A stretch of DNA of 64,000 nt, taken from contig OX031065.1 in the NCBI GenBank assembly GCA_943736015.1, forward strand, positions 34,734,427 to 34,798,426. Direction: 5' to 3'. The notes under the pieces were generated by a model, which saw only the letters and a list, made by a program, of their open reading frames with translations, was not told the DNA's origin and did no database searches. This DNA is from Tridacna crocea. Taxonomy: Eukaryota > Mollusca > Bivalvia > Cardiida > Cardiidae. The translations under genes and the position numbers were made by a program. Below, piece by piece: positions 42,578-63,042 of this stretch (position 1 is the stretch's first letter; every line of letters begins with the position of its first letter).

Positions 42578-42587
42578 TATATAAAAG
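42578..42587 (+). promoter_or_regulatory. TATA box of the secreted matrix-type gene
   Basis: The sequence TATATAAAAG is a strong TATA box. An initiator-like CGCACTAG lies 31 nt downstream, with its A at 42609, so transcription probably starts there. That would give a 5' UTR of about 66 nt before the ATG at 42675. The spacing matches metazoan TATA promoters; the start site itself is inferred. Confidence 0.7.
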
Positions 42588-42674
42588 CACGAGACTGGCA
42601 AGGTCCGCACTAGTCGCCATCTGTCCATCGACTGTCCACGCACCATTGTTCGTCTTCACACTGAAACCGGCAAC

Positions 42675-42711
42675 ATGATCACTCAGGGACTTTTACTTTT
42701 GTGTGCTGTCG
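42675..42711 (+). CDS. Exon 1: signal peptide start
   Basis: Encodes MITQGLLLLCAV plus the first base of the next codon, followed by a consensus donor (G|GTAAGT). A short n-region precedes a Leu/Ala/Val hydrophobic core, as in a secretory signal peptide. Joined to exon 2 it reads CAVALSEA, which offers cleavage after an Ala preceded by S-E or A-V. The ATG is the first one downstream of the inferred start site. Confidence 0.75.
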
Positions 42712-45700
42712 GTAAGTAAACCTACATAACTCGTCAGTTTCGTTTTTCTTTTCAGCAATCAACTTTTTTCCTCATTATTTCTCAGGTAGTTAAGATGAAT
42801 ACTTAGGCAATTAGATATAATTCAATTCCAGCAAAACTGACTTTTTTTTAACCGAATACGTAATTTTACGTCATCTGCATTAGTATACACGAAACAAATA
42901 ATGACTCATAGGAAGAAAATTGTTTTGTGCTCCTCTTTTTTACGTAAAAAAATGCAAGTTAAAAGGAAATCAAGAATTATTCTGGCAACAATTCGGGATA
43001 AACTTGAAGACTTCACTAATCTACAGAAAACGAATAACAATTTTATTATAAGCAGCCAATCTATTTTTGGAGCTATCTGACAGTCAAATATCTTTTTGAT
43101 TGGCGTCAAGTAAATTCACAAAAAGTTCGTCACCAAAGCCCCTTATGATGTTAATGCACAGCAAAAAACGAACCCTTATCTGATTTTTTTTGCATGACGA
43201 AAACAGTGTGGTAAAAGGAGAAAATTCGGGTTACAGACATTTTTATCCTTTCCTACATTTTTTTCAAAAGTATTCTTCATCAAGGTCATTGAAACACAGA
43301 ATTGCTAAGAAACAGATTTATCCAAATTTGTCATTTTAAACTCTGTTCTCGTTTTCACGAATCATTCCTCTATCATTTTAACTCTATTATCGTTTTTACG
43401 AATCATTCCTCGCTTTTCGCCGATAAGTCTGCGCCTATCTCGCTTTATATGTAACTTAATGTTTACATATTTCTTTTCACCTAACATGCCACTTTTGAAA
43501 ATGTTGTAGAAAAATAAGGATATTTGTTATATTGAACGTTGATTGCATTTTCCAGTATGTTTTCGTGACAGGACTATAACGATTTTAACCATCTACAATG
43601 TTATCATTCGTCTGCTTGCCAAAAGCCAACAAGCCATGATCGAAATGCAGACAAATTTAATTCATAGCACTGAAAAGTATGGATATATAAGATCTGACAT
43701 TAGTTGGTTTTTGAGATAAAAAATTATTAAACGAGTCTACAAAAATGTTATTAAGCAAGCCTTTGGAGAGCTTATTATTTTTTACTTCAAAAACCAACGA
43801 TTGTCAGATTCTTTTTATCACATTACTGATTAACAAGAATTACATGTATAGTCCAAATTGTGTTAAACCAGAGGCATACATGTATCATGTGTAGTGAAAT
43901 TTACATGAAGCCTGTGCACTTACTTTGACAGGTACATTACGAACGAAAATAGTTCCAAAGAAACTTGCATAATATTGATTTTTGTTTGAGCTTTATCATG
44001 ACAAGAACTTTGACCGCTAATTTCCTTCAAAAACCTAGGTCAGCAATGTTTTAGAAATGAAGCGTATAATTACAGAGTGTTGACCAAATACAGCACTATT
44101 TTCTTATCTCACACATGTGTGAGACAAGAAAATTCGTAATGGCTGTATTACATTGAAAACAAGGAGAGTTATGTGATAAGTCATTAATGCAATCTGTCAG
44201 TGTTCCAGTAGCTGGCAGAAAATGTATTGATAAATAAGATGGCATATTTCTGCTGAGAGATACAAGATAGTTAATGCGATAATTTAATGCGTTACCACAC
44301 AATCCCTACTTCTGACGACCCTGAGAAAGAAAGCCTATAGAAAACATTGTTGGAAAAGAAGAAAATGCTGGTAACCAGCATTTTCTTCTTTTCCCACAAT
44401 GTTTTCTACCCTTAACAAAACGAATTCAAAGTTTTCAGTCACTTTATTATGTCGTCTGCAAATGCTTTCGATTTGGACAAGCCTAAAATTTTGTCGTTTA
44501 GTAAACAGTTGAGAGAACTATCGTGATAAATCAAAGTTTCCTAGAAATGTTATCTAGATAACAAAAATTTTCACGATAAAAATATCGCGATCATTCTACA
44601 TGTATCTGTTATCATGACTTCTTTTTTTGTCTTTTGCCCCAAACTGACATTCCGGTGTCTATAATTAGATACGGTTTTGCTGGGACATCTTTTTCTACAA
44701 TTTTATGAAATATTTTTCCCTGAATGGTTTCTGTGTGTTCGTAGAAGACATTTTGAGTCAATTTCGTGATTTTAAAGACTTCAGTTCATTTTGAGCTTTG
44801 TCAAAATTTAGCTACATTTATTAATTAATTTCAGTTCATTTTGAGCTTTGTCAAAATTTAGCTACAATTATTAATTATTCGAATCGTTACTTGGTGCAAT
44901 TTTTCTGAAGTCAAGCTCTACTGAGTTCTCCCAAATGATTGTTTTTATTCAAATATATGGAGAACCAGGTAGGGCAATCATGACAGCTTCGTGCATTATT
45001 GAGAAATTTTGCTCTACAATATTAAGTTTATCGTGATTTTTTTCCCGGAAACCTTTCACCGTATCTCCATAAAATTTCCAAGAAACTTAAATTTATCGCA
45101 TAGTTTTGTAAAATTATCTTGATGGCTATCTTGTATCTCGTGGCAGAGATATGCCACCATAAATAGAGTTTATTTCATCAGCTTGTGGTTAACATGGGGA
45201 AATATTTGCCTCAAAAGGGAAAGGTCCGTGAAAATAACTCGTGCCTTCTATTTGCCGAAAAAGGGAAAGGTATGCGAAAATAACGAGTGCCGTAAGGCAC
45301 GAGTTATTTTCGCATACCTTTCCCTTTTGAGGAAAATATTTCCCCATATTAACCATAAGCTGATGAAATAAACCATATGTTATCTTTCATCTGATTATTT
45401 TGTCAACTGATAATGCCACTTTTAAAACTAATGATCTCAAAACAATTAACCAGATTTTCGGCAGGAGGAAAATATTCACTGTGACCGGGAAATAATTCCC
45501 CCAGCTTAAATTAGGACATTTCTTTACCCATAACATTTCTCAAAATAGACACATGAAATCTAATATACTAGAACAAAATTTGCTTTTGGCAGATAGCCTG
45601 CCTTTGACGAAGAGGAGCAGACATCTGTTTCGCGGACATTTCTTGCAATACTTTTCTCTTTACAATCAAATATATATGTCTTATAATTAGACTGGGTTAT

Positions 45701-48700
45701 ACAAGGTAATTCTTGTCAAAAAATCAAGTGCCTTCACTGAAAAAGCTTTGTAGGGGTTAGGAAAACACCACTGTAGTTGCTATGATTAGGTTGATTTATT
45801 CCTGTACGATCTATAATCTTGAGAGTATAAACACTTTTTTTGTAACTAGTGAAGAAAACGTAGGCATGTTTTTATTCTGAATTGCATTAGTCTTATTCTT
45901 GGTTTAGAACGTAACACAAGTTCTGATTGGCTAAACCATTTGGTTTAACCAATCAGAACTTGGTTTACTCTGAATTTGAAAAAAAAACAACAACACCATA
46001 TGTACATGACTAAGAACACTATTAAGAACGCCGTTATAGTAATTTCTCTGCTTTAAAAAAAAAAGAAACATAGACTCATGATTGTGTGGTAAAGGCTTGA
46101 ACAGTTTGTATTTTGTTAAAGAAACGAGTTCCAGGAGATCCATTTGTTTTTATTTATTACACTTTTCATTTTCTTTTCCTTTTTGTCTATTGCAGCATTG
46201 TCAGAGGGTGAGTAGTATGGTTTTAGTATATGGTATTAGAATTATTTTCAAATTTTAACTCATTACAAAACAACAATATCATAGACTTGTCCAAATTGAA
46301 AGCATTTGCAGACGACAAAATAAAAGTGACTGAAAATTTGAAATTTGTTTTGTGAAGGGTAGAAAACATTGTGGGAAAAGGAGAAAATGCTGGTAACCAG
46401 CATTTTCTCCTTTTCCCACAGTGTTTTCTAATGGCTTCTTTCTCAGGGGCGTCAAAAGTAGGGATTGCGTGGTAATGGGTTAGAATACTCAGGTGTCAGA
46501 GATCTATTACCTTACTTATCTGTTTCACGAAACCAATCTCATTTCATTTTTTAATCACTGGAATGCAAAGTGCCGAAAAGGGTTATTTTTACTTTACGCA
46601 GCAGACAATTTCGAAAAAAATATAATTGTAAAATGTGATTAATTAACAACTGGTGAAATCTATATAATTACATATTCTTCATATAGCTATGACTTCAAAT
46701 GCTGTGGAGACCTTGCTAGGTACGACCAATTTCTTTTTGGCTAATTGAATTTAACCCTTTTCATGTTAAATAACTAAAACGAAATTTTCAACTCAACAAA
46801 AAGAACCCCCAAAATATTGCCATGTCAAAGTTATATTTCAAAGTATTTGGGAATAATATATTCTTATCTAACCGTGTAGATCCAAGATCAGACTGCACGT
46901 TCTGTGCAGTCTGATCTTGATCTACACTGTCCACAAAACGCATACGAGTCGCCCATAGTAGCAAATGGGTTAAAAGTTGTCTGAAGCTGGACGAAGAAAA
47001 AGAAAACGTCATCAGGGCCTGTGTTCACCTACCATTCTTGAGGACTTTCTTAGTCTTAATCTCCACGATTTTCTAAATTTGTAAGTAACATAACTTCTGA
47101 TTGGCTAAACTGAATGGTTTAGCCAATCAGAAGTTGTGTTACTTTCAAATATATACTATTCTTTAGAATAAATAAAGAAAGTTCTTAAGAATGGTTGGTG
47201 AATACGGGCCCAGGGCTAACAAACTATTTAAATTCATTTTTATTTCAGCTTATTTCAAGCCACTGCCACCAAAACGTAAGTACAGTTATATTTCCACTGA
47301 ACTAATGTAGGTTATATAGCATTTGACATGATTTAGTTTTTGAGATAAACATCTATCAAACGAGTCCTCAAAAATGTTATTAAGCGAGTCTTTGGCGAGC
47401 TTAATAACATTTTTTGCGGACAAATTTAATAAATGTTTACCTCAAAAACCAACGAGTGTCAGATTCTTTTTATCACATTACTGATTAACAAGAATTATAG
47501 TCCAAAATGTGTTAATCCACAGGCATACATGTAGTGAAATTTACATGAAGCTTGTGCACTTACTTTGACAGGTACATTATGAACGCAAATAATTCCGAAG
47601 AAACTTGCATAATATTGATTTTTTGTTTGAGGTTGAATTAACAACTTTATCATGACAAGAACTTTGACTGCTAATTTACTTCAGAAACCTAGGTTAGCGA
47701 TGTTTTAGAAATGAAGTGTATAATTACAGAGTGTTGACCAAACACAGCACTACTTTCTTATCTCAAACATGTGTGAGACAAGAAAATTCGTAATGGCCAT
47801 ATCACATTGAAAACAAGGAGAGTTATGTGATAAATATATTTTATTATACTGCAAAGAAATTTCCCATGATCTGATTGGTTATCATGATCGATGATAGATG
47901 ATAGATATCATTTATTCTTTATTAATCCTTTATTAAAGATTTGATCTTTACAGATCTTCATCATCCCACAAACATAATCATGTATTGTTTAAGTGTTAGT
48001 ACAAAAGGATTAATGTAAAGGTAAAGTGAGTAGATCGGAAAAAAAGTAAAGAAAAATATTACGCTATCATTTACTGAAAGGTTATTGGATGTGACAAAAA
48101 AGGAAAATTTCCATATAAAAACATTTTCACTATCTGTCACAGCCTTCAACATATTCATGTACTGATTAGGACCAGTTATGCTTTAAAGTAATATGTATCA
48201 TGCCGAGAACATACATGTATATTATGTTCCCTGGCAAAAATACCCGATAAAACTGGGCGGATTGCACAAGCTGACCAGAATTGACACTTTTCGCTTTTAT
48301 GATATTTTCCGCATGAAAAGTGGTTATTCTGCTTAATTATACAATTTTTGAACTATCAACTTAACTCTTTACCACACGAGAAACTGTTAGACTGATCCAA
48401 ATTGAAAGCATTTGCAGACGACAAAAAGGTGACTGAAAATTTGAAATTTGTTCTGAGAAGGGTAGAAAACACTGTGGGAAAAGGAGAAAATGCTGGTTAC
48501 CAGCATTTTCTCCTTTTCCCACAGTGTTATCTTAAGGCTTCTTTCTCAGGGGCGTCAAAAGTAGGGATTGTGTGGTAATGGGTTAAATTGATCTGCACTA
48601 TATTCGATCCGTTTTCATGTAATTGATAAACGGAATTCCCAATCTGTCCCTTTTTTGCGTGATTGGTCGCATTTAAATGGGCTGCAACCCCCATGTCATC

Positions 48701-51700
48701 TTGGTCACAGATTCAGATTCTCAAAAAACTGCATACGTATGACAGGTTGAAGTATTTGTGAGAGTGATTTGCATTTTTAGACAATAATCTGTCAATCTCT
48801 GAGTGTCTAACTGTCAAAGATACCTTCAAAGGTGAGACGTTTATGTCTGGTTGACAGTTTCCAGCGAAGTTCCAGAAGTTAATACCTACAGTTGAACGCC
48901 TACTTGATCACCAAACTAAACGGGTTTATTACGTTATAGAGAGTTCGTGTCAGTTTTGTCACGTGTCGCTACGTTGTTATGACTTTATCATTATTCTATA
49001 TTAAGGATTCTATACTTGTTCAGAGGAAAATAGGTCAAAGGCGCGGATAAAAACGTGACGCTAAACTAAACTTTATGTTCCTGTAAAAACCATCCTTTTG
49101 AACTCGTCAGGTTTTTTGTTTCACAATTAAGCTTGATACCGGTTCTTCATATATGTTGCAGGTTCATGTACTCTTAACTGTGCGTCACGAAAATTTGACT
49201 GTTTTTTTTTTGCTTACTCCAACATTCCACCCCCACCACTTATTTAAGGGTACCTTTTTCTGTATTCGGCAATGATCCTTTTGATGATTAGGGAAGAAGG
49301 AAATGTTCTTTGACTGATAATATAGATTCGGAGCTGACTGCATAAAAAGCGCGCTGTAGATCAGTAGCAGGGTCTGTGTTCACCAGCCATTCTAGCGAAC
49401 ATTCTTAGTTTAAATTCTGATTTTGAAAGTCACAAAACCTTTTTGGTTAAGCCAATCAAAATCTGTATTACTTTCGAATTTAGAACTGAAATTCTGAAGA
49501 GTAAGACTAAATGATGGTTAACAAGGACTGAAATATTCCCCCCAATACATGCTTTATTTTCGTTTAGATGAAATAACTTAATCCACTTTTATTCTTTTTT
49601 TTTTTTCAGCACTGCCAATTTTTCCAAGTAAGTACTTTCTATTGTCATTTCTTGATATACTCCATCATAGACAACATAATTTTAGACTCGTCCATATTTG
49701 CGGAAAAAAAACCGCTTCAATGATGACATTTCTCCTCAAAAGACTAAGTAACACAGTAGAAATGAAGAAAATGTTGGTTACCAGATAGAAGATTTAGGCC
49801 TTTCTTTGAAGTAATGATTTAACTCTTTACCAAACAGGAAAATTTTAGACTGGTCCAAATTGAAAGCATTTGCAGATTACAAAATAAAGGTGACTCCAAA
49901 GTTGAAGTTTGTTCTGGAGGTTAGAAAACATTTTGAATCAGCATTTTCTCCTTTTTTCACACAATGTTTTCAAAAGGCTCCTTTCTCAGCGTCATGAAAA
50001 CCTGTGGTTATATGGAAACGAATTTATTCTTTACCAGATAACAAAATTTTAGACTGGTCCAAATTGAAAGCATTTGCAGACTACAAAATGAATGGGACTA
50101 AAGAGTTGAAATATGTTTTAGGAAGGAAAGGGAACGTCGTGGGAAAAGGAGAAAATGCTGGTTACCAGCATTTTCTACTTTTCACACAATGTTTTCAAAA
50201 TATTTCTTTCACGGGGGGTGTTAAAATCAGGATTGTATGGTAAAGGGTTAAACAACACGCTTTAAAAATCAACGTTGCTAAAAAGTCGTTTAAACGCATA
50301 TTCGAGCTCCTGCCCAACTTTATTAAGCGTATCGATCACTGTATGGCAGATTAAAATGAAGCTTTTTCTCTTTCTTGAGTATCTCTGTATCTCTAATTAT
50401 AATAAATCTTTTTTATTTTTCAGTTAAGCCAATCGTTAAGCCGGTCATACATAAGAAGTTCGTCCCAATCGTGAAGAAAGTCAAAGGTAATACCTGTTTT
50501 TGTATACACTGCATTCAATAGGCTCTGTTTTTTTGCGGTCGATGCTTTCTCTTGCATACCCTGATTGCTTTTGATATATTTAAAAGATTAAATGAATACC
50601 AGTCTTATTTTCTGAATTTATTTTCACAGTGCCAGTATACATTCAGAGAGAAGTTCACGTGCCAGTCATCATCGACAGAGAAGGTTTGTATTAAAATTAT
50701 TTTCGATGGGTAGGCGTAAACCCTGATATCATAAGCAATTAAAGACTGTTCATGTGCATTGTAAATTGGTACATATAAGAAAAATATCTAATTCGTATAC
50801 ACTTCTTTTCAAAAACATTTCTGTCTTCCAAGTGATTGTGAAAATGCTTTGATGAATTGCTATTTATATATTCATTTCGAGAAGTAGTCAAAGATGTAGA
50901 GGCTGTCTCGTGCATTTTTTGTCTTTTTAGTAACAGAATGTACCTTTAACCTTTAAGTTGATAATTGGTTCCTTCATACTAAATAGAAATAAATTTACTG
51001 CACTATGCAAATGTCATTTACATGAGGGTTTAGTTCAAAGAAATGTAGTGTAATGTTTACAATTACAGTCCATGTCCCATACCCTGTTAAGGGCGGTGCC
51101 GGTGTTGGGGGTGGAGTAGGTGTCGGAGTCGGAGTCGGAGCTGGCGTTGGTGGAGGTGAAGGAATTGGTAAGTGAAAGACGTGTCTATGTATTTGACCTT
51201 GAGAGAAGTCTTGAACTGTCCATCACAACTGTAGATACGCCTGCGGACAATACAAATCCATATAACACTGCAAAAAGCTTGCAGTATGGTCTTTGTTTTT
51301 CCGCGTTCATAATATTGTAATATTTAGGCAATAACTGAGCACTACATTTTGATCTACTGTCAATGTTCATTATTTTAGGGCTAAACAATTACTATATAGG
51401 CTGTATTAAGCTTTCACCGAGCAATACCCGCGAGGAAAATCGTGGGAAAAGAAGGAAATATGCTATTAACCAATATTTTCTATTTCCACGATTTTTTTGT
51501 TTTTACATTTCAAAGGTAAATTTCATCAATGAGGAATATTTAATTTTATCTGCAATGGTTTTTAGCTAAAGTGTAAAGTTTCATCATCTGCTAAGGAGGT
51601 TAATGGCAAGAAAAAATGTCGTGATTTTGTAATTGCAGGGTAAACATTGTCAGAAAATTTGTATAAATGTAGTTACTTTTACAATCGAAAAGCACTATAG

Positions 51701-54700
51701 TTTGTGGCAAAAAGGGTTGTTGAAAAAAAGTTTGACTACCTCTGTAAAAGACATAGTTAACACCTTTGTTTGCTATTTAATTTAAAAAAAAGCGCTTTGT
51801 TTTTGATTTTCTTTTTTATCATAATATGGCCTGCGATATGCGAAAAGGTGCTTTCGGACATTTGCGTAAAGTGTCTAGGCAGGCTATAATCCGAGACGGC
51901 ACTTTACGTCAACATTACATTTTGGCCTACAGTAGACTTATGTGAAACAGAAAATCACACACAATCGGAAAGTATCGTTTCGGATCAGCCTGCGCAGACT
52001 GCGCAGGCTATTCCGAGACGACACTTTCCGCAAATGTCGGAATCCCCCTTTTCGCGTGTTACAGGCCAATTATGGCAGTCAGTGATTTCAGCGCTTTGAT
52101 TTTGAAATTTTTCATTTGGCATCTTGATTATTTTCTCTTTCAGATTTCGGACTGAACGCACAAATCAGTGAGTACCAATCTATTCCCTTTACTTTTCATC
52201 ATGTCCTTAAGATACCTTTTCCGTTTTAGAGATGGAACCAGTATTTCATTCGCTACTGTTATTCAATGCAGGCCAAACGGTCAGACTGCACAGAATGGAA
52301 ATTCTAATCTGAGAGCGTCTCTGTCAGCAGTCTTGTGCATACTATACCCGACAATTTTTCCGTATATGAAAAGACCCGATTCGTCATACTGAAGCACTTT
52401 ACAGGTCAACTATTTCCTTTGTCTAAAGAGGTGTCAAACACCATTCATAACACAATACACTAAAATAGCACATGCGGTAATGATCGCCCAGAAAATGTTT
52501 AGCATCCACTGAATAAGTATAGCTCTTACTTGTTTTTCACTAACACCTTAGATGTAGTAATAGTTTTAGAAATTAGAATTATAATCTTTACATTTAACAA
52601 GGCTTACATCTGTCATTACTAATTCGACATCCATCTCCCTACGGAATCCCATCCACGCCATAGATTTATTAAATACCGCCCTACAAGAACGATAACGCGA
52701 CTAGCTTATCAAATGTAGAATATATATAATTCAATACATACGAATTTAAACTCTTTTACTGCCGGTGTAATGCAGAGAAATGACCTCCATTACAAAATGA
52801 CCCACGGTCATTTCTTGACGTAGAGGAATGACCCATGGATCATTTCTCTACGTCGAGAAATGACCCATGGGTCATTTCTCGACGTAGAATAATGACCCGG
52901 GTCTTTCCTCTACGTCGAGAAATGACCCGGAGGTCATTTTTGTAATGGGGGTCATTTTTCTGCATTACACCGGCTAAAAAATGCATTCGACTTTTCATTG
53001 GGTTCAGAGATCTATGCTGTCTGCAAAGGTATTTCAGTCGTCATTGGCCTTTTTCAAAGGTCTTCAACAGGCTTTCCCAAAAGTGTATGAATGTATGCTG
53101 TGACATTTAACAATTTTTGCGTTTTCTTTTGTGTGTGTGTAGAAAAATAAAACGTTAAGGAACAAGATTTGGCAATTTTCATGATACCCCTCTCGATAAA
53201 ATTGATATACATAAACAAGATATACCATTCTGACGAGGTCTTTCTTAAATTAGTGTACCAATATATGCAACAAGTCTACCAATATATGCAATATGCAATA
53301 AGTTTACTAGTCCTCGCAAGGTTACTCGGATGTACTGTAAGATTAACAGTCCTCGCAAGGTTTCTCGGATGGACTGTAAGATTAACAGTCCTCGCAAGGT
53401 TACTCGGATGGACTGTAAGATAAACAGTCCTCGCAAGGTTTCTCGGATGGACTGTAAGATAAACAGTCCTTGCAAGGTTTCTCAGATGGACTTTAAAAGT
53501 ATTAGTCCTCGCAAAATTTCTCGGATGTACTGTAAGATTAACAGTCCTCGCAAGGTTACTCGGATGGATTGTAAGATTAACTGTCCTCGCAAGGTTACCC
53601 GGATTTTGTCGTTTTCGAAAGGAGTTAAACCTCTTTACCAAACTTTATTTAACCCTATCCTGCGCAATAACTAAAATTGGAATTTTCAGTTTGATAGTAA
53701 AAAACCTAAATATTGCCATTTGAAAAGTTATGTTTTGGGGTATTATATCTCCATATCGGACAGTGTAGTTCAAAGATCAGACTGCACATCTTGTGCAGAC
53801 TAATTTTGATTGACACTTTCTGCAAAAGGTCAGTGAGTCGCGCTAAACAAGTTAAGACATTTTCAACGTGATAGCACTTACTGACGACAAAATAAATTTG
53901 GCTCAAGTTATAATCATTTTTTAATAGTAGAGGAAGCGTTGTTGGAAATGTAAAGAATTCTGATTACCAATTTTTCTATTCTTTGCCCACAATGCTTCTT
54001 CCTAAGGACCCTCTTGTTTTGGTTATGCGGTAAAGAGTTAAAAAAATAAGTTAATAAAAATGAAAATAGTGCAGCATTTAGACTGTAAGCAAGCCAAAAA
54101 CAAATTAATGGTTTTATCTCAGGTGAAAATACTGGTTGTCGGACCCTTTTGCCGTGTTGATAGATTTTCATGTATACCAAAGAGATTTGAAACTGATACT
54201 ATTGGCATGGTAATAAAATATGTTTCATCACATCATTGTACTAACAAATATTCCCATCATTTGCATCCCGCTCGCAGGCGACGCAGATCACGTGAACATC
54301 CAGGCAGGAGTCGGTGGAGTCGCTGGCATACAAGGTATCGACAACAACGGGCTCAATGACTTCAACGGCCTTAACGACCTCAACAACGACGGACTGATCG
54401 GCGGCGGAGCCATAGACGGGGGTATGGTAGGTTTTGACAGTGCCCCACCGGCTAGCATCGACATTTCCCAGACCAGTGTTAGTGCTCCCTCGGCTTCCAT
54501 TTCCCAGCCACAGATCGACATTGGTCATGGAAAGATTGGTGGGGGTCACGGAGATCACGGAGTTCACCCAAAAATTGCGCCCGCTACACATCATTTTTAA
54601 CTGATACCATGACAGCAAGCGTTTTGCCTCCAAACATTGATTTTCAATATAATTTATTTAAATCACATCATAGCCTTTTAAGCAATTACCACAAAATCAC

Positions 54701-57700
54701 AATTGTTAATGACAATGGTTTTTAAATATGTCTTGAGAAAAGAAGAAAATGCTGGTAACCAGCCTTTTCTCCTTTTCCCAGTATACTCTTTAGCCTTTCT
54801 GAAACAGGTACCATCAGTGAACCCCTTTCTAAGATGTCTTCTGCAAATGTTTTTAATTTGGACAAGTCCAATTTTATTTGTCTTGTAGAGGGCAAAGGTT
54901 TGATATATCGTTACCCCCTGTAACAAATTTGTGGCAGATGACTTTACCAAACGACAAATTTTTAGATTTGTCCAACTTGAAAGCATTTGCAGACGACTGA
55001 ATACACGTGACTCAAAATTTGAAACTTGAATTCAGAAGAGTCGAAAACATTGTGAGAAAAGGAGAAAATGCTGGTTACCAGCATTTTCTCCTTTTCCCAC
55101 AATCTTTTTAGAAGGCTTCTTACTCGGGATCGTGAAAAACAGGGGTTGTTTGGTAAAGGGTTAAGCACGTGTGTGAAATTGGTCTCATTTACGTGAACCT
55201 AGCTTAATCCATGAATGTCATTGTAGATATTGTGGCCAGAGGAGAAATGTTCTCCATAAACATATTTGTTTTTGCCATATGCTGAATTTTTTTTTTTTAA
55301 ATATAATATTACAATACTTACGATTTAATAGTGATTCTATTTAGTTTTTAACATGAAAAAAATTCTGCTTAATATACAGACTTTTTTTTTGTTTTGTATT
55401 TATTGGTAGCTGAAAACATCTGCTACTAACCAGTTAACTATACATTTAATACTAACTACTAATACAAAGTAGAAAGAAATGACTTAATAGACCAAAGATC
55501 ATCTGATTTCATTCTATTTATTTTCATTTTTCATCTAGTCAGATCTAGATCTACTGCTATGACTTACAATGCTAAAAATGTGTGAAGACGGAACGAAAGT
55601 TAAAAAAAAAAAAACGTTTGAACTATGTTCTGTTAAAAGGTGGCCTATTGCATCTGAAAATAAAGTATCGACTCATATCAGCCTGCGCAGACAAGGCTTA
55701 ACTGTGTCATATAGGATCTGACATGAGTTGGCTTTTGAGATAAGATTTTATTAAACGAATCTAGGGAAATGTTATTTAGCGAGCCTTTGGCGAGCTTAAT
55801 AACATTTTCCATGACGAGTTATCTCAAACGCCTACGAATGTCAGATTCTTTTTATCACATAGCGATATTTCACAAAATATAGATCAGATGATGCAAAACA
55901 TTCATAAATGCACACGCGGTATTTTACATGAGACGCATTAACTTATATGAAATGCCTACAAAATGACGTCAAAAATGACGTCACACAAATGTGATATCAA
56001 ACGTGTGTAAGATAAGAAAAATCGTAATGGGTATATTACACTGAAAATAAAGAGGTTATGTGATAAAAACTGTCTTTCTATTGTTTACTTTTCTGCATGT
56101 TCAAGAACATTACAAAGTTATTTACTCAAGGCTCTAACAGTTGTAAGACAAAATGGATTTTATTGATCCCCAGCTAGCTATGTGATTGATTACATGGTAG
56201 ACGGTATATTTCAAAGATGCACTTAACCCATTTTAACCAGAGCATGGTTCATATTTATCGAGTCAAAATAAAACCAGTTGATACTCAAAGCGTTATTTGT
56301 CTTCTTATTCCGTGGTATACCAGTAACAGTAACAGTTTAACCCTTTACTCCATAGATACTCATTTCTACACATTGCTTGTAGGACTCTTTGGAAAACATT
56401 GTGGCAAAAGGTGAAATTGCTCGTGACGAGCAATTTCACCTTTTGTCACAATGTTTTCTATGCAATCAAAAGGTGTCATTTACACATAAGAAACGGCTTC
56501 ATCCTTGCTGTCATTAAGGGTCAATTAGAGATGTCATAGGGGTAAAGGGTTAATACTGTTTTGTAGCTGCAATAGATAGCTTGCAACACTCGACAAGGGA
56601 CATTAGTACATTTGCGTAAAGCGTCGTCTCGAGATTACACTTTACGACATTAGATTTTATCATATAGAAAACTACATAAAAACGAAAAGGTGTCGTTTCT
56701 GTTTAGCCTGCGCATACCGCAATTGTCCGAATGCCCCTTTTCGAGTGTTGCAAGCCAATTTTGGCAAAATCCTGTAAAAACGGAAGCGTATACTTATTTT
56801 TCTCTATCACTAAATCAAGAAAAAAATATGTAGATCAACACACTTCTGACGGAAAACTTTCAGAAGAGCTCCGCATCATTGCCGGGGCTGCAAAACACTC
56901 TATCAAAGCGTGATGCATAGTTTATAAAGAACACAGAACAAAGAGGAAGACTACAACAAGTTACTAGTGTCTACATTTTGCCATCATTTGGTTTTTACAT
57001 TATTGGATGCGTCTGTGCTTGCGCCTGCATGTGTATGTTAGAAAGAGAGAGAGATTGTGACATTACGGTTGCTGTATCACCGGCTCTATACGATAACAAA
57101 ATCATCTACTGACAAACCTACACATCGTAGTAGTAGTGGTTGGTTTAACAGCATGTTAGATAGGTATAGATGTGAGTTTCGATAAAATTGCATATAAATA
57201 TAGCAAATACATATCTATCTAACTAACCCTTTCCCAAACGACAAACTTTTGGACTAGACCACATTGAAAGCATTTGCAGGCGACAATTCAAATCTTGCTG
57301 AAAAGATGATTTCTGTCTATGATAGGGTAGAAAACATTGTGGGAAATGGAGAAAATGCTGGTTACCAGCATTTTCTCCTTTTTCCACAATGTTTTCAAAA
57401 GGCTACTATTCCAGACCCGTAAAAACCAAGGATTGTTTGGGAAAGGGTTAAGCTAAAAACTAGACGATAGATCACTCCTCCCACTGATGTCACGTGGTCC
57501 GCCAATCAAGAATTCAGGACAAACAACCTAGATATCCAGGCTAAGCTACGAGATATATGAAACTCACCGGGAGATTTTTCTACCGTTAAATAATTATTCT
57601 AGATAACATAAGCGTGAAACCAATTTAAGAAAAGGCACTTACATCTTTTGCATTAGGTGTATCGAAGTTATGGAATGTGAAAATTGAAATAGAGGCTGGT

Positions 57701-60670
57701 TTATCTAGAAATCAGTTGAAAAACACAGCCTTATAACTCTTACATTTGATAATGTATTTAAATTAAACTCGTACTTCCTAAACATGTCCTAAAATCATTG
57801 ATCTGTTAATACAATTCATTTGTTATCTGGACAAAAGTTCTGTTCTGTTCTATAATACATAGAGGATATTTGTTTTTTTCGGTGAAAGATCGAAATTTAT
57901 TATATACCTAGCAGTGAAATCCTGGAATTTCCCAGTGTAATAATTTTTGATATCATCACTAGTGACGTTATCAACTTTCACTCTCACTTCCTGCCGTAAT
58001 TTAGGAACTACATTTTTTTCGACTACATTTTTTACGACTTTCAAACGCAAAATTACAAATAATGATGTTAATAAGGTATATAATAAATAGAATAATCAAC
58101 TGGTTATTTTTGATATGAAAAATATCTCACTCGGACGCGTCGTAAGGCGTTAAAAAAAAACTCGTGCTGCGCACTCGTTTTTTCAACGCCTAACAACGCG
58201 CATCCTCGTGAGATATTTTTCATATCAAAAATAATCAGTTGATTATCCTCTATTTATTTCATCGAGTGAACACCATCGGTAATATTTTCACGTCGAAAAT
58301 ATTACCGATGGTGTTCACGAGATGAAATAAATTTCGATCTTTCACCGAAAAAAAAAATATTCTGTTTATTTCATGCCTTTAACCCTTTCTGGGAGGAGCT
58401 TTATCAAAATCCAGTACAGTTCTTTTCTGTTATTCCCCGTGGGGTACCCCTCCCGCATAGCAACGCATTACAATATTACGTCAAGCGCTAGAAATGTAAG
58501 GTATATGACCTCATATTTCCCATTTGGTTGTCAGGCACGCGCAATTTACTTAGGAAACAAGAACATGAAAATCGGTATTTTCATTAGTGGTACCAGTGTA
58601 AGATCGAAAAATATTTTCACTGCTATTTCTCGATATCCTACCGGAAGGCATGAAATAAATAGAGGATACTCTCGTGAACACCATCGGTAATATTTTCACG
58701 AGTGGCTACGCCACTCGTGAAAATATTACTGATAGTGTCCACTCGATGAAATAAATTTCGATCTTTCACCGAGAAAAACAAATATTCTATTTATTTCATG
58801 CTTTTAACCCTTTCTGGGAGGAGTTTTATCAAAATCCAATACAGTTCTTTTCCGTTATTCCCTGTGGCGTACCCCTCCTGCATACAAACACATTGCAATA
58901 TTACGTCATGCGCGAGAAATCTAAGGTAAATTACGTCATATTTCCCATCTGGTTATCAGGCACGCACAATTTACCTAGGCGACAAGAACGTGAAAATCGG
59001 TATTTTCACTGGTGATACCAGTGTAAGATCGAAAAATATTTTCACTGCTATTTCTCGATATCCTACCGGAAAGCATGAAATAAACGTATCTATTTCTTTT
59101 AGTAAAGAAACGGGTATTTATATAGCTAAGATCGTCATTCTGGAAAAATAATGACAATATATAGAGGATATTTGTTTTTTTCGGTGAAAGATCGAATCAC
59201 GAGTGGCTGCGCCAGTCGTGAAATTATTATCGATGGTGCTCACGAGATGAAACAAATTTCGATCTTTCACCGAAAAAAACAAATATTCTATTTATTTCAT
59301 GCGTTTTATCCTTTCTGGAAGGAGCTTTGTCGAAATTCAATTCACTTCTTATCCCTTATTCCCCGTGGCATACCCCTTCCGCATAGCAACGTTACGTCAA
59401 GCGCGAGAAATGTAAGGTATATGACGTCATATTTCCCATCTGGTTGTTAGGCACGCGCAATTTACCTAGTTTCTAGTTTAAACATATTTTATTGCCAAGT
59501 AATTTTACAAATAAAATTTTCAATACAAAACAATATACATAATTAAACAACTAAGCAAAAGGGTCTGACCACAAGTTATCACAACTTAGATTCGGTCATT
59601 CCCCTAGGCAACAAGAACGCGAAAATCGGTATTTTCACTGGTGATACCAGTGTAAGATCGAAAAATATTTTCACTGCTATTTCTCGATATCCTAGCGGAA
59701 AGCATGAAATAAAAAAAAACATGTTTACAAACGTTATTCTTTTCTTTTTTCATATGCGTCATTAGTTTTAAAAGGTGTAATTGCTCGTGACGAGCAATTT
59801 CACCTTTTGTCACAATGTTTTCTATGCTATCAAAAGGTGTCATATAAACATAAAAAAGGCTTCATCCTTGCTGTTATTTAGGGTCAAATAGAGATACCAT
59901 AGAAATGCCTTATGGGGTAAAGGGTTAACTTGCGAAACCCAGTCCTTGTTATTACTTGCCATTGTTAACCTTTACAACAAAGTCTCTAGTCTTCATGACC
60001 TTGGGATGGAAAAGTTTTAAAAACATTTTCTCCATTCCCCACAATGTTCTCTGCCCTTCTAAAGACAATCGTATAAATTGAGACACACTGAAACTGTCGT
60101 CTGCCAAAGGATTGGAATTGGACAAGTCAAATAGTCTGTCGTTCGATATAGAGTAAAGAAGAAGAGCAATATTTAGAATTAATCCTTTACTAATCAATCC
60201 ATGTGTTTTACGACCCTGAGATAGAGTGCTTGAAAATATTGTTTGCAAAATAGAAAGCGCTGGTAGCCAGCAGTTTTTCCTTTTCCCATAATGTTTCCTA
60301 CCCTTCTGGAAACAAATTAGTTTTAATTTTTGAGTTGCATTTGTTCGGTCGTTTGCTAGTGCTTTCAATTTGGACTTGTCTAAAATTTTGTCGTTTGGTA
60401 AAAGTTAAGGATAAAATCAGCCTCCACTGTCCATTTTCAGGAGACGCAGACGCTGTCAGTGTAGGCGGCGGTGTTGGAGGAGGAAGAGGATTCGGCGGTT
60501 TTGACAACAATAACGGCTTCAATGACTTCAATGGTTTCAACAACAACGACTTTAATGGCTTCAACAGAAACAACGATTTTAACAATTTTAATGACTTCAA
60601 CAATTTCAATGATTTCAACAATGATTTCAACAACGGTGGTGGAGGGCTGATTGGAGCAAGACACCATTAA
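42675..60670 (+). CDS. Secreted structural (matrix-type) protein; spliced gene of phase-1 micro-exons with two alternative last exons
   Basis: Proposed coding exons: 42675-42711, 46196-46207, (46687-46719 optional), 47249-47275, 49610-49627, 50424-50486, 50630-50683, 51069-51167, 52144-52167, then either 54278-54600 or 60441-60670. Every junction has AG/GT borders and phase 1, and all internal exons are multiples of three, so the frame stays open throughout. Predicted lengths are 218 or 229 aa with the first last exon and 187 or 198 aa with the second. Order of regions: signal peptide (residues 1 to about 17), Pro/Val/Lys/Ile-rich segment with repeated PVI and VPV motifs, Gly-Val repeat, short DFGLNAQ linker, Asn/Asp/Gly tail ending in His. 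There is no enzymatic motif and no Cys after the signal peptide. This composition is typical of extracellular structural proteins such as shell matrix or byssal proteins. The tissue is not deducible and I cannot name a family. Introns hold many MITEs. Confidence 0.72.
43690..44175 (+). mobile_element. AACGAGTCTAC...GCGAGC element, copy 1 (in intron 1)
   Basis: Contains AAACGAGTCTACAAAAATGT, then TTATTAAGCAAGCCTTTGG, GTCAGATTCTTTTTATCACA, and ends AGGAGAGTTATGTGATAAG. Other copies are at 47325-47835, 55708-56068 and 61905-62375. Confidence 0.65.
44284..44512 (-). mobile_element. TTAA MITE type A (in intron 1)
   Basis: TTAATGCGTTACCACACAATC start; right end AGTAAACAGTTGA. Core AGAAAATGCTGGTAACCAGC intact. 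Confidence 0.8.
44781..44880 (+). repeat. 50-bp tandem duplication (in intron 1)
   Basis: TCAGTTCATTTTGAGCTTTG occurs at 44781 and 44831, and the following TCAAAATTTAGCTACA is identical. Confidence 0.85.
45168..45375. mobile_element. Long near-perfect inverted repeat (in intron 1)
   Basis: TTTATTTCATCAGCTTGTGG ... AAAATAACGAGTGCC and GGCACGAGTTATTTTCGCAT ... AGCTGATGAAATAAA pair over almost the whole length around 45290. A partial duplicate of the left arm is inserted. Confidence 0.75.
46196..46207 (+). CDS. Exon 2: 12-nt micro-exon
   Basis: The acceptor (tctattgcag) and donor (GTGAGT) bracket only 12 nt, phase 1 to 1, encoding ALSE across the junction. It completes the signal peptide. Its size means it would be missed by gene finders. 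A 229-bp TTAA MITE starts 47 bp into the following intron. Confidence 0.65.
46255..46483 (+). mobile_element. TTAA MITE type A, 229 bp (in intron 2)
   Basis: TTAACTCATTACAAAACAAC to GCGTGGTAATGGGTTAG, intact palindrome. Confidence 0.85.
46687..46719 (+). CDS. Possible optional 33-nt exon
   Basis: An AG (cttcatatag) and a GTACGA donor bracket 33 nt that are open in phase 1 and encode AMTSNAVETLL. Length and phase match the other exons, so inclusion or skipping would keep the frame. The acceptor pyrimidine tract is weaker than its neighbours', so this may be a chance match or an alternatively used exon. Confidence 0.4.
46751..46973 (+). mobile_element. TTAA MITE type D, complete (in intron)
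   Basis: TTAACCCTTTTCATG to GCAAATGGGTTAA, with a central palindrome GATCAGACTGCACGTTCTGT-GCAGTCTGATC flanked by GTGTAGATC/GATCTACAC. This is the best complete type D copy. Confidence 0.8.
47005..47215. mobile_element. Inverted-repeat element (in intron)
   Basis: Outer arms GTGTTCACCTACCATTCTTG / AGAATGGTTGGTGAATACGG and inner arms ACTTCTGATTGGCTAAAC / GTTTAGCCAATCAGAAGT. Confidence 0.65.
47249..47275 (+). CDS. Exon 3: Pro-rich 27-nt exon
   Basis: Follows tttttatttcag and precedes GTAAGT. Encodes AYFKPLPPK in phase 1 to 1, the start of the Pro-rich mature region. The intron upstream contains an inverted-repeat MITE and a type D TTAA MITE. Confidence 0.72.
47325..47835 (+). mobile_element. 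AACGAGTC...GCGAGC element, copy 2 (in intron)
   Basis: Long match to 43690-44175 including GTGTGAGACAAGAAAATTCG and AGAGTTATGTGATAA. Confidence 0.7.
47895..48185 (-). mobile_element. Truncated retroposon-like sequence (in intron)
   Basis: TTATTCTTTATTAATCCTTT head and CATCATCCCACAAACATAAT resemble a reversed LINE/SINE 3' end; no coding frame. Confidence 0.35.
48361..48586 (+). mobile_element. TTAA MITE type A, 226 bp (in intron)
   Basis: TTAACTCTTTACCACACGAG to GTGTGGTAATGGGTTAA, intact palindrome. Confidence 0.85.
49610..49627 (+). CDS. Exon 4: 18-nt micro-exon
   Basis: An uninterrupted run of T residues before CAG and a GTAAGT donor flank 18 nt encoding PLPIFP, phase 1 to 1. The motif repeats the PLPP pattern of exon 3, which suggests exon-level duplication. 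Both splice sites are close to consensus. Confidence 0.72.
49819..50028 (+). mobile_element. TTAA MITE type A, palindrome deleted (in intron)
   Basis: TTAACTCTTTACCAAACAGG start; one palindrome arm is missing, so the hairpin is lost. It abuts the next copy. Confidence 0.7.
50025..50251 (+). mobile_element. TTAA MITE type A (in intron)
   Basis: TTATTCTTTACCAGATAAC to GTATGGTAAAGGGTTAA, core GCTGGTTACCAGC. Confidence 0.8.
50424..50486 (+). CDS. Exon 5: Lys/Val/Pro-rich exon
   Basis: 63 nt, phase 1 to 1, after ttttatttttcag and before GTAATA. Encodes a basic segment beginning IKPIVKPVIHKK and continuing FVPIVKKVK. It alternates K, P and V/I, which suits an extended extracellular structural segment. 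Confidence 0.75.
50630..50683 (+). CDS. Exon 6: VPV-repeat exon
   Basis: 54 nt, phase 1 to 1, after tattttcacag and before GTTTGT. Encodes VPVYIQREVHVPVIIDRE, an internal repeat of a roughly 9-residue unit (VPV-hydrophobic-I-x-R-E-V). The next exon opens with VHVPYPV, continuing the pattern. Confidence 0.75.
51069..51167 (+). CDS. Exon 7: Gly-Val repeat exon
   Basis: 99 nt, phase 1 to 1, after tttacaattacag and before GTAAGT. Begins VHVPYPVKGG, then runs as alternating G and V (GVGVGVGVGAGVGGG) and ends GEGI. Such GV/GGG blocks are common in elastic or silk-like extracellular proteins. GTC GGA units within it are near-identical, so length variation between alleles is likely. Confidence 0.78.
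51827..52073. mobile_element. Two-hairpin MITE, copy 3 (in intron)
   Basis: Right hairpin CGGATCAGCCTGCGCAGACT / GCGCAGGCTATTCCGAGACG and end TTTCGCGTGTTACAGGCCAA. The left hairpin is reduced. Confidence 0.7.
52144..52167 (+). CDS. Exon 8: 24-nt linker exon
   Basis: Follows ttttctctttcag and precedes GTGAGT. Encodes DFGLNAQI plus the first base of the next codon. It is the last exon common to both proposed 3' ends and carries phase 1 into either terminal exon. Confidence 0.72.
52761..52974. mobile_element. GACCCATGGGTC palindrome-array element, copy 2 (in intron)
   Basis: Ends GCCGGTGTAATGCAGAGAAA and TCTGCATTACACCGGC; fewer internal palindromes than copy 1, spacers read TCTACGTCGAGA. Confidence 0.8.
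53318..53605 (+). repeat. 39-bp tandem repeat (about 7 copies)
   Basis: Unit CCTCGCAAGGTTTCTCGGAT then GGACTGTAAGATTAACAGT, 39 bp, repeated about seven times with few changes. Because 39 is divisible by three, frames stay open on both strands. These are not genes. It lies in the intron before terminal exon A. Confidence 0.9.
53648..53855 (+). mobile_element. TTAA MITE type D, decayed (in intron)
   Basis: TTAACCCTATCCTGCGC start and AGATCAGACTGCACATCTTG palindrome; right end eroded. Confidence 0.6.
54278..54600 (+). CDS. Terminal exon A: Asn/Gly/Ser-rich tail
   Basis: The acceptor ctcgcag is preceded by a perfect branch-point-like TACTAAC at 54239-54245. The exon reads on in phase 1 as SDADHVNIQAGVGG, then an NNGLNDFNGLNDL stretch, a Ser/Pro segment (SVSAPSASISQPQID), and a His/Gly end (GGGHGDHG...ATHHF), stopping at TAA 54598-54600. 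It adds 107 residues. Only a variant polyadenylation signal (AATATA, 54646-54651) follows. A possible phase-1 internal donor (G|GTATGG near 54420) could also make it an internal exon joined to exon B; this is speculative. Confidence 0.75.
54646..54651 (+). terminator. Weak polyadenylation signal after terminal exon A
   Basis: AATATA, a variant signal, lies about 46 nt downstream of the stop at 54600. No AATAAA is seen nearby, so exon A may be cleaved less efficiently than exon B. Confidence 0.3.
54678..54895 (-). mobile_element. TTAA MITE type A, decayed
   Basis: TTAAGCAATTACCACAAAATC start, AGAAAATGCTGGTAACCAGC core, eroded right end. Lies about 80 bp after terminal exon A. Confidence 0.65.
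54938..55164 (+). mobile_element. TTAA MITE type A
   Basis: Left ACTTTACCAAACGAC; right GTTTGGTAAAGGGTTAA; intact palindrome. Confidence 0.8.
55165..55700. other. AT-rich spacer
   Basis: Several A- and T-runs; no gene or repeat boundary recognised. Confidence 0.4.
55708..56068 (+). mobile_element. AACGAGTC...GCGAGC element, copy 3
   Basis: ATAGGATCTGACATGAGTTG start, GTTATTTAGCGAGCCTTTGG, end AGAGGTTATGTGATAAAA. Contains ATGACGTCA palindromes. Confidence 0.65.
56337..56553 (-). mobile_element. TTAA MITE type B
   Basis: TTAACCCTTTACTCCATAGAT to GGGGTAAAGGGTTAA; a 12-bp deletion near the right end relative to 229-bp copies. Confidence 0.8.
56567..56763. mobile_element. Two-hairpin MITE, copy 4 (decayed)
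   Basis: ACATTTGCGTAAAGCGTCGT and TTTCGAGTGTTGCAAGCCAA ends; both hairpins partly deleted. Confidence 0.65.
57222..57452 (+). mobile_element. TTAA MITE type A, full length
   Basis: CTAACCCTTTCCCAAACGAC to GTTTGGGAAAGGGTTAA, intact palindrome. Confidence 0.8.
57860..58250. mobile_element. Long inverted-repeat element, copy 2
   Basis: Same module as 25770-26118 (AATCAACTGGTTATTTTTGA ... ATTATCCTCTATTTATTTC), preceded by GAGGATATTTGTTTTTTTCG, an end shared with the following cluster. Confidence 0.6.
58255..59085 (+). mobile_element. TTTCACCGA-type element, tandem copies 2 and 3
   Basis: Two head-to-tail copies (about 58255-58660 and 58660-59085). Each has a GTGAACACCATCGGTAATAT / ATATTACCGATGGTGTTCAC hairpin, then AACCCTTTCTGGGAGGAG, and ends CTACCGGAA(A/G)GCATGAAAT. 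Confidence 0.75.
59163..59711 (+). mobile_element. TTTCACCGA-type element, copy 4, with insertion
   Basis: Same family. Interrupted by a foreign segment at 59466-59605 between CAATTTACCTAG and CCTAGGCAACAAGAAC. Confidence 0.75.
59466..59605 (-). mobile_element. Short retroposon inserted with CCTAG duplication
   Basis: The undisturbed site in sister copies reads TTTACCTAGGCAAC. Here CCTAG flanks the insert on both sides. On the minus strand it ends GGCAATAAAATATGTTTAAA, as a 5'-truncated LINE or SINE tail would. Confidence 0.6.
59765..59928 (-). mobile_element. TTAA MITE type B, left end lost
   Basis: Core GCTCGTGACGAGC to right end GGGTAAAGGGTTAA. Confidence 0.75.
59967..60405 (-). mobile_element. 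Two decayed TTAA MITEs before terminal exon B
   Basis: TTAACCTTTACAACAAAG... to about 60160, then TAATCCTTTACTAATCAATC to GGTAAAAGTTAAG. The second ends 35 bp before the exon B acceptor. Confidence 0.6.
60441..60670 (+). CDS. Terminal exon B: Asn/Phe-rich tail, homologous to exon A
   Basis: The acceptor ccattttcag opens a phase-1 exon of 76 codons ending at TAA 60668-60670. It begins RDADAVSVGGGVGGG, then has a repeated (D/N/G)FN tract such as GFNDFNGFNNNDFNGFN, and ends GGGGLIGARHH. Asn makes up 22 of 76 residues. Its start (DAD...GVGG) and NDFNG core match exon A, so one arose by duplication of the other. A canonical AATAAA lies 58 nt after the stop. Exon B is best read as an alternative last exon, or the last exon of a neighbouring paralogue whose other exons are missing. 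Confidence 0.75.
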
Positions 60671-60727
60671 ATCGTTATTGAAAAAATAACCCGTTGTATC
60701 GGTCTCTAGACAGTTATGGGGTAATCA

Positions 60728-60733
60728 AATAAA
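60728..60733 (+). terminator. Polyadenylation signal of terminal exon B
   Basis: AATAAA occurs 58 nt after the TAA stop, in the usual position for a short 3' UTR. It supports 60441-60670 being a true last exon. Confidence 0.6.
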
Positions 60734-60827: not shown

Positions 60828-60886
60828 TGAAATGATTAACAACGATGGCTGAGGGCTGTATACAGGACGGTACCACTGATAAATGT
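60828..60886 (+). pseudogene. Decayed copy 1 of the terminal-exon 3' end
   Basis: The stretch AATGATTAACAACGATGG then CTGAGGGCTG matches the last codons of exon B (AATGATTTCAACAACGGTGG then TGGAGGGCTG) and continues toward the GACACCA region with substitutions. It lacks the upstream Asn/Phe repeat and an acceptor. It is a remnant of a tandemly duplicated last exon. Confidence 0.5.
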
Positions 60887-61518: not shown

Positions 61519-61746
61519 TTAACCCTTTTCCAAACAAGCCCTGCTTTTTACGTGTCTGCTGTAAAAGTCTTATGAAAACACAGTGGGAAAAGGAGAAATT
61601 GCTCGTAACGAGCAATTTCTCCTTTTCCCACAGTATTTTCTACCCTTTTTGAGAACTTTCTGCCATTTTCTCCAAATCTAAAATTGTCGTCTGCAAACTC
61701 TTTCGGTTTGGAAGGGTCCAAAATTTATCGTTTGGGAAAGGGTTAA
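61519..61746 (-). mobile_element. TTAA MITE type C, 228 bp
   Basis: TTAACCCTTTTCCAAACAAGC to GTTTGGGAAAGGGTTAA, core GAGAAATTGCTCGTAACGAG. Its right TTAA abuts an exon remnant. Confidence 0.85.
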
Positions 61747-61802
61747 CAAGGGTGGCCGGTGGCTACTTGGAGCAAGACATATTAATTAGTTTCTGAAATA
61801 AA
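61744..61802 (+). pseudogene. Decayed copy 2 of the terminal-exon 3' end with AATAAA
   Basis: AACAAGGGTGGCCGGTGGCT then TTGGAGCAAGACA aligns closely with the end of exon B (AACAACGGTGGTGGAGGGCT, TTGGAGCAAGACA). An AATAAA follows at 61797-61802. Its left edge coincides with the TTAA end of a MITE (61519-61746), so the rest of the exon is separated from it or lost. Confidence 0.6.
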
Positions 61803-63005: not shown

Positions 63006-63042
63006 ATGGCGTTCATTCAGATTTTGCTAGTGATGGCGTTTG
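63006..63042 (+). CDS. Candidate first exon of a second secreted-protein gene
   Basis: ATG opens MAFIQILLVMAF plus one base before a donor (G|GTAAAT). It is 37 nt and phase 1, the same length and phase as exon 1 of the gene at 42675, and it too encodes a hydrophobic signal peptide. A TATA-like ACATAAAAT lies at 62932. A possible exon 2 starts at 63097 after ttattttcag and reads GKAESVHQDQISS before a stop at 63174, but a 54-bp intron is short for this locus. The true next exon may lie beyond the window. Confidence 0.5.

Follow-up and report, generated by a model that had tools for sequence, protein, structure and literature searches.

A chain of very small exons that joins into one open reading frame, and is homologous to three intron-less genes elsewhere in the same genome, begins downstream of a TATA box at 42578 in the window (the whole 64,000-nucleotide stretch of DNA analysed here). 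Most probably, with a likelihood that we place at roughly 0.7, it constitutes one animal gene, with a promoter of the TATA type, that extends from 42578 to about 60.75 kb and encodes a matrix protein for secretion, in which splicing would allow both the N-terminus and the C-terminal tail to vary. That it is a real multi-exon gene follows from the fact that its intron-less paralogues recover the exon borders in an independent test. Such relatives can be seen as a built-in cDNA record kept in the genome, from which exon borders can be fixed without RNA data.

The exon chain and its intron-less relatives

The gene model comprises the following features, given by their positions in the window.

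42578..42584, + strand: TATA box TATATAA, 97 nt upstream of the ATG at 42675
42675..42711, + strand: E1, coding part of the first exon (37 nt), putative signal peptide start (MITQGLLLLCAV); border found in 6/6 spliced-alignment runs
46196..46207, + strand: E2, micro-exon (12 nt) finishing the likely signal peptide (ALSE); found in 6/6 runs
46687..46719, + strand: E3, probable cassette exon (33 nt); skipped in 6/6 runs, with an exact 11-aa gap in 3/3 intron-less relatives
47249..47275, + strand: E4 (27 nt; AYFKPLPPK); from reading frame and spliced alignment
49610..49627, + strand: E5 (18 nt; PLPIFP); from reading frame and spliced alignment
50424..50486, + strand: E6 (63 nt), rich in Lys, Pro and Val; from reading frame and spliced alignment
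50630..50683, + strand: E7 (54 nt; VPVYIQREVHVPVIIDRE); from reading frame and spliced alignment
51069..51167, + strand: E8 (99 nt), VHVPYPVK followed by a Gly-Val repeat; acceptor found in 6/6 runs
52144..52167, + strand: E9 (24 nt; DFGLNAQI); found in 6/6 runs
54278..54600, + strand: terminal exon A (323 nt), with stop; ending matched by the intron-less relatives
60441..60670, + strand: terminal exon B (230 nt), Asn-rich, with stop; likely an alternative ending that shares homology with exon A in its first part
60728..60733, + strand: poly(A) signal AATAAA 3′ of exon B, read from the sequence

The nine exons E1 to E9 join into a single open frame, and the introns up to exon A measure 143-3484 nt. 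A preliminary description, made from the letters alone, had proposed a gene of phase-1 micro-exons at 42578..60733, and this is confirmed both by reading the chain, its frame and its phase directly in the DNA and by the paralogue alignment. The uniformity that it emphasized is equally borne out: all introns are in phase 1 and the eight internal exons are, without exception, multiples of three. Its "strong AG/GT borders" hold as regards the dinucleotides, which are GT/AG everywhere, but the strength of the sites is uneven; on approximate splice weight matrices, the acceptor of E8 scores -1.8 and the donors of E7 and E9 0.9 and 1.1, respectively. E8 also carries in-frame alternative donors after 51149 and 51155, and the frame remains open with all three (51149, 51155 and 51167). 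As for the claim that the gene would be nearly invisible to ORF-based annotation, it is fair as far as the small exons go; each of the two terminal exons, however, is contained in an ORF of more than 120 aa, and the relatives are plain ORFs.

The gene is located on contig C10 of a genome of 1,048,827,098 bases in 31 contigs. Whole-genome protein searches were carried out with E4-E8, tail A, tail B and one of the relatives (c1) as queries, match counts being lower bounds. With E4-E8, at least six matches, from seven candidates, corresponded to three pieces of the window gene and three loci on contig C6; the same four loci were among the matches obtained with c1 and with tail A. The C6 genes, namely c1 (6431575), its close neighbour and duplicate c2 (6436458), and c3 (14688281), are intron-less, with ORFs of 219-222 aa. 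Their proteins align across all the joins of the spliced window protein (45% identity and E 1e-36 by BLASTP in the case of c3), and the sole gap that coincides with an exon is that of E3, exactly 11 aa long, the others falling within E6, E8 and exon A. The residues of E9 are identical in c3 and conserved at 7 of 8 positions in c1 and c2, its FGLNAQI being present in all four proteins.

In a blind test, a spliced-alignment script was given only c3 and 18.3 kb of DNA. It placed E1, E2, E4-E9 and exon A at the borders of the model, all of them in phase 1, and skipped E3. The score, 504.6, compares with 130.6-160.3 on 13 decoys (the reverse complement, plus 6 other 18.3-kb stretches on both strands) and with 165.1-190.3 for 8 shuffled queries. 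Over six runs with varied penalties, four of them with c3 and two with c1, the borders were identical except for the E8 donor, which fell at 51149, 51155 and 51167 twice each. Furthermore, the C6 genes are under purifying selection, as the low dN/dS values obtained with our own NG86 script indicate: dN 0.045 and dS 0.396 between c1 and c3 (ratio about 0.11; 176 codons), 0.056 and 0.410 between c2 and c3 (0.14), and 0.013 and 0.072 between c1 and c2 (0.18).

Symmetric micro-exon genes are easily missed by gene finders, and invertebrate matrix proteins evolve so fast that they are seldom detected by homology; the use of paralogues in place of cDNA could serve genome-wide.

Candidate sites of variation: E3 and the two endings

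With phase 1 maintained throughout, E3, and in principle any internal exon, could be skipped in frame. The preliminary description had drawn from this the possibility of many isoforms. Frameshift-free joining does hold, since the eight joins tried (E1-E9 with A, E1-E9 with B, and 6 others) are all free of stops and the relatives are devoid of exactly a 33-nt exon, but "many isoforms" is overstated. What we do infer is that the skipping of E3 is living alternative splicing, so that inclusion of this exon would change the mature N-terminus of the protein.

A possible, though to us somewhat doubtful, alternative is that E3 is a recently exonised piece of intron, always included, and that the C6 genes predate it. 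Its sites are weak (acceptor 1.7 and donor 2.5 on the same approximate matrices) and its counterpart is missing in the three relatives. Against this, E3 agrees with the other internal exons in having a length divisible by three, a phase of 1-1 and an open frame, and without it a typical cleavage site for a signal peptide results.

The second candidate site is the end of the message. Either E9 or E8 joins in frame to exon A or to exon B, and these would be alternative last exons: the transcript would end in A, or else splice past A and end in B, thus exchanging the C-terminal tail. The Asn-rich tail had previously been presented as the ending of the gene; it stands as a plausible alternative, but the intron-less relatives match exon A, which that description did not mention. 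Indeed, the ends of the C6 genes are related to exon A over its full length and to exon B only at its start; in the genome protein search, exon B met nothing in them beyond a weak match at this start (E 8.57). The start of B resembles A with an E value of 1.9e-9 by tblastn without filters, and of 0.02 in the genome search, after which B continues with Asn-Asp-Phe repeats.

Concerning the 3′ signals, an AATAAA follows 58 nt after the stop of exon B. No AATAAA occurs within 1 kb downstream of exon A, the first in the scanned stretch being at 55659; after exon A there is an AATATA at 54646, which we take to be a variant poly(A) signal. Exon A also contains an in-frame donor after 54421, and its first 144 nt remain open when joined to exon B. 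A splice of this first part of A to B is a speculative further form.

Rather unlikely, in our judgement, is the proposal that the working gene ends at A, with exon B being either part of another gene further downstream or a defunct copy of exon A. It would account for the ends of the C6 relatives, which are like A only, and for the 5.8 kb that separate B from A; besides, the region duplicates and decays, as seen at 61745-61801 (76% identical) and 60831-60858 (83%), where degraded fragments of the 3′ end of exon B recur. However, B is open, has the right phase, keeps the start of A, possesses its own AATAAA and is preceded by a good acceptor (6.1, on the approximate matrices). Moreover, a search of the interval between A and B for first exons that are hydrophobic and in phase 1, a kind of scan that is weak, yielded a single poor candidate (ATG at 55279); another, whose threshold was too strict to recover E1, is left out of the evidence.

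Between E9 and exon A lies a tandem array (53309-53604; 39-bp unit, 7.6 copies) that is open for more than 120 aa on both strands, owing to its period.

Origin of the intron-less genes and chance level of the splice signals

The sequences point to a copying of the C6 genes through RNA, because what c1 and c3 share is bounded as a message would be and every intron is absent. A single collinear block is common to c1 and c3, spanning -53 to +551 relative to the ATG and starting roughly at the transcription start; the flanks are not shared, and elsewhere only repeats are common to both loci. As in functional retrogenes, the copies have no introns where the parent has them, are collinear with its spliced message and are subject to purifying selection. 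They differ from retrogenes in the TATA box that each possesses, 82-84 nt upstream of the ATG in the three genes (97 nt in the window gene), and in the poly(A) remnant, of which none was found: within 400 nt downstream of the stop, the three genes are devoid of A-runs of 8 or more. The TATA boxes and the missing A-run, as well as the signs of copying through RNA, would all be accommodated if an older duplicate had lost its introns by way of cDNA.

It is tentatively conceivable that RNA copying froze one splice form. According to this, the C10 gene would vary in E3 and in the tail (A or B), while the copies kept by selection, with TATA boxes of their own, would represent only the E3-less form with tail A. 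If true, the animal would possess one structural protein in two separate versions, one fixed and the other variable.

Could the intron-less form instead be ancestral, the window gene having gained its introns? We consider this quite improbable. The TATA box kept 82-97 nt before the ATG at all four loci speaks in its favour, as a simple retrocopy would not carry one, and so does the missing A-run after the C6 stops. Nevertheless, nine gains, all in phase 1 and two of them bracketing an extra 33-nt exon, would be required; the ends of the introns are unlike one another, save for brief matches of pyrimidines and of interspersed repeats; introns 6 and 7 lie in a stretch that occurs only once in the genome; and a c1/c3 block without flanks is what is expected of RNA-mediated copies. 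A gain by repeated insertion of one element, in particular, is unsupported, the intron ends being different and the stretch of introns 6 and 7 single-copy.

A splice-site scan of 18.2 kb for open phase 1-1 candidate exons, with approximate weight matrices, gave 22 candidates, the eight internal exons among them, whereas 30 first-order Markov resamples averaged 11.1. Seven candidates had a summed site score of at least 6 (mean in resamples, 1.57): four exons of the model, the 5′ part of exon A and two outside the model. The reverse complement gave 7 candidates, two of which reached this score, and stricter first thresholds had listed only 2 of the 8 internal exons. By themselves, then, the splice scores are suggestive, moderately above chance. 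This modest excess (22 versus 11.1) is what could favour a chain put together by chance from splice-like sites, without a gene behind it, an explanation to which we assign practically no weight, contradicted as it is by the collinear homology to three selected ORFs and by the blind spliced alignment.

The predicted product, comparable systems and the surroundings

The elements attributed to the protein in the preliminary description are all present: an N-terminus that resembles a signal peptide, a Pro/Val/Lys region, a Gly-Val repeat and an Asn-rich tail. By inspection only, the N-terminal MITQGLLLLCAVALSEA reads as a signal peptide and is kept as MIATGLLFLCAVAASQA in the relatives, with a likely end at S-E-A in the window gene and S-Q-A in the relatives. 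E1 and E2 would thus supply the signal peptide and its cleavage site, E4-E7 a basic Pro/Val/Lys segment, E8 the Gly-Val repeat, E9 a conserved linker and the last exon an Asn/Gly-rich tail. The predicted mature product has, by our count, 17.5% Gly, 12.3% Val, 10.4% Ile and 9.0% Pro; the predicted pI is 10.2 for the E4-E7 segment and 4.6 for tail A, which is acidic and rich in Asn, Gly and His. Judging from this composition, the putatively secreted product is most likely of low complexity and structural, a component of a matrix in which the basic segment and the acidic tail might mediate self-association of the chains.

Composition is the basis of this proposed structural function because a Pfam search with the four proteins returned no family above the cut-off (best DUF4799, E 0.083). 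In the PDB, searched with c1 only, the best match had an E value of 0.58. Within the literature covered, a search with peptide strings retrieved nothing relevant (vpvyiq appeared once, in an unrelated paper), and one on microexons in bivalves nothing related by title.

Low-complexity secreted proteins occur in mollusc shell, byssus and hinge ligament, and the composition and putative secretion of the window protein are of that general sort; the shell or byssus role suggested in the preliminary description is conjectural. The tropoelastin gene (ELN) of vertebrates consists of many small exons, all in the same phase and each divisible by three in length, and the phase and exon lengths of the window gene follow the same rule. 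Both would be secreted matrix proteins, a predicted property in our case, and in both Gly-Val-rich repeats alternate with Lys-bearing stretches. The window gene differs in its acidic Asn/Gly tail, in its far fewer exons and in its intron-less relatives, and none of the four proteins showed a homology to tropoelastin at the level of Pfam families above cut-off. Splice isoforms are described for ELN, with 13 transcript variants in NCBI (PMC9027394); here they are putative. If E3 and the A and B ends are alternatively used, an invertebrate parallel to tropoelastin splicing would be at hand, as well as a natural comparison between a gene that splices and copies unable to do so.

The micro-exon genes (MEGs) of schistosomes are described as difficult to annotate and as coding for secreted products, with introns of 0.1-5 kb and with very short exons that number 10 to 20, range over 6-81 bp, are mostly of 15 bp and tend to be multiples of three (PMC10526429). 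Compared with that description, the window gene is alike in its predicted secretion, its very short exons (8/8 internal ones multiples of three), its long introns, which up to exon A fall within the range given for MEGs, and its difficult annotation. It departs from it in exon number and size: internal exons are of 12-99 nt, seven of the eight being within 6-81 nt and none of 15 nt, and the 323-nt last exon holds nearly half of the coding sequence.

The neighbouring genes offer no clue to function. About 2.3 to 24.5 kb before the window there are exons of a C2H2 zinc-finger gene; at 63006-63042 the next gene probably has its first coding exon (MAFIQILLVMAF, with a GTAAAT donor in phase 1); and, beyond the window downstream, there are repeated cysteine-rich exons, two of which gave ShK-like matches in Pfam, at E 0.0038 and 0.045, short of the curated cut-off. 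A fragment of an endonuclease/exonuclease/phosphatase domain (PF03372, E 1.8e-6), probably derived from a retroelement, lies about 1 kb upstream of c2. Among the repeats, a tandem array with a period of 82 (or 162) and about 11 copies occupies 33064-33975. Finally, a 25-bp near-perfect palindrome (GAAAATGCTGGTNANCAGCATTTTC, at most 2 mismatches), part of a larger interspersed element, occurs at 31 places in the 64 kb, where none would be expected by chance; these include 44361-44385, 46383-46407, 48486-48510 and 50151-50175, and the palindrome is likewise present a short distance before the TATA box in both c1 and c2.
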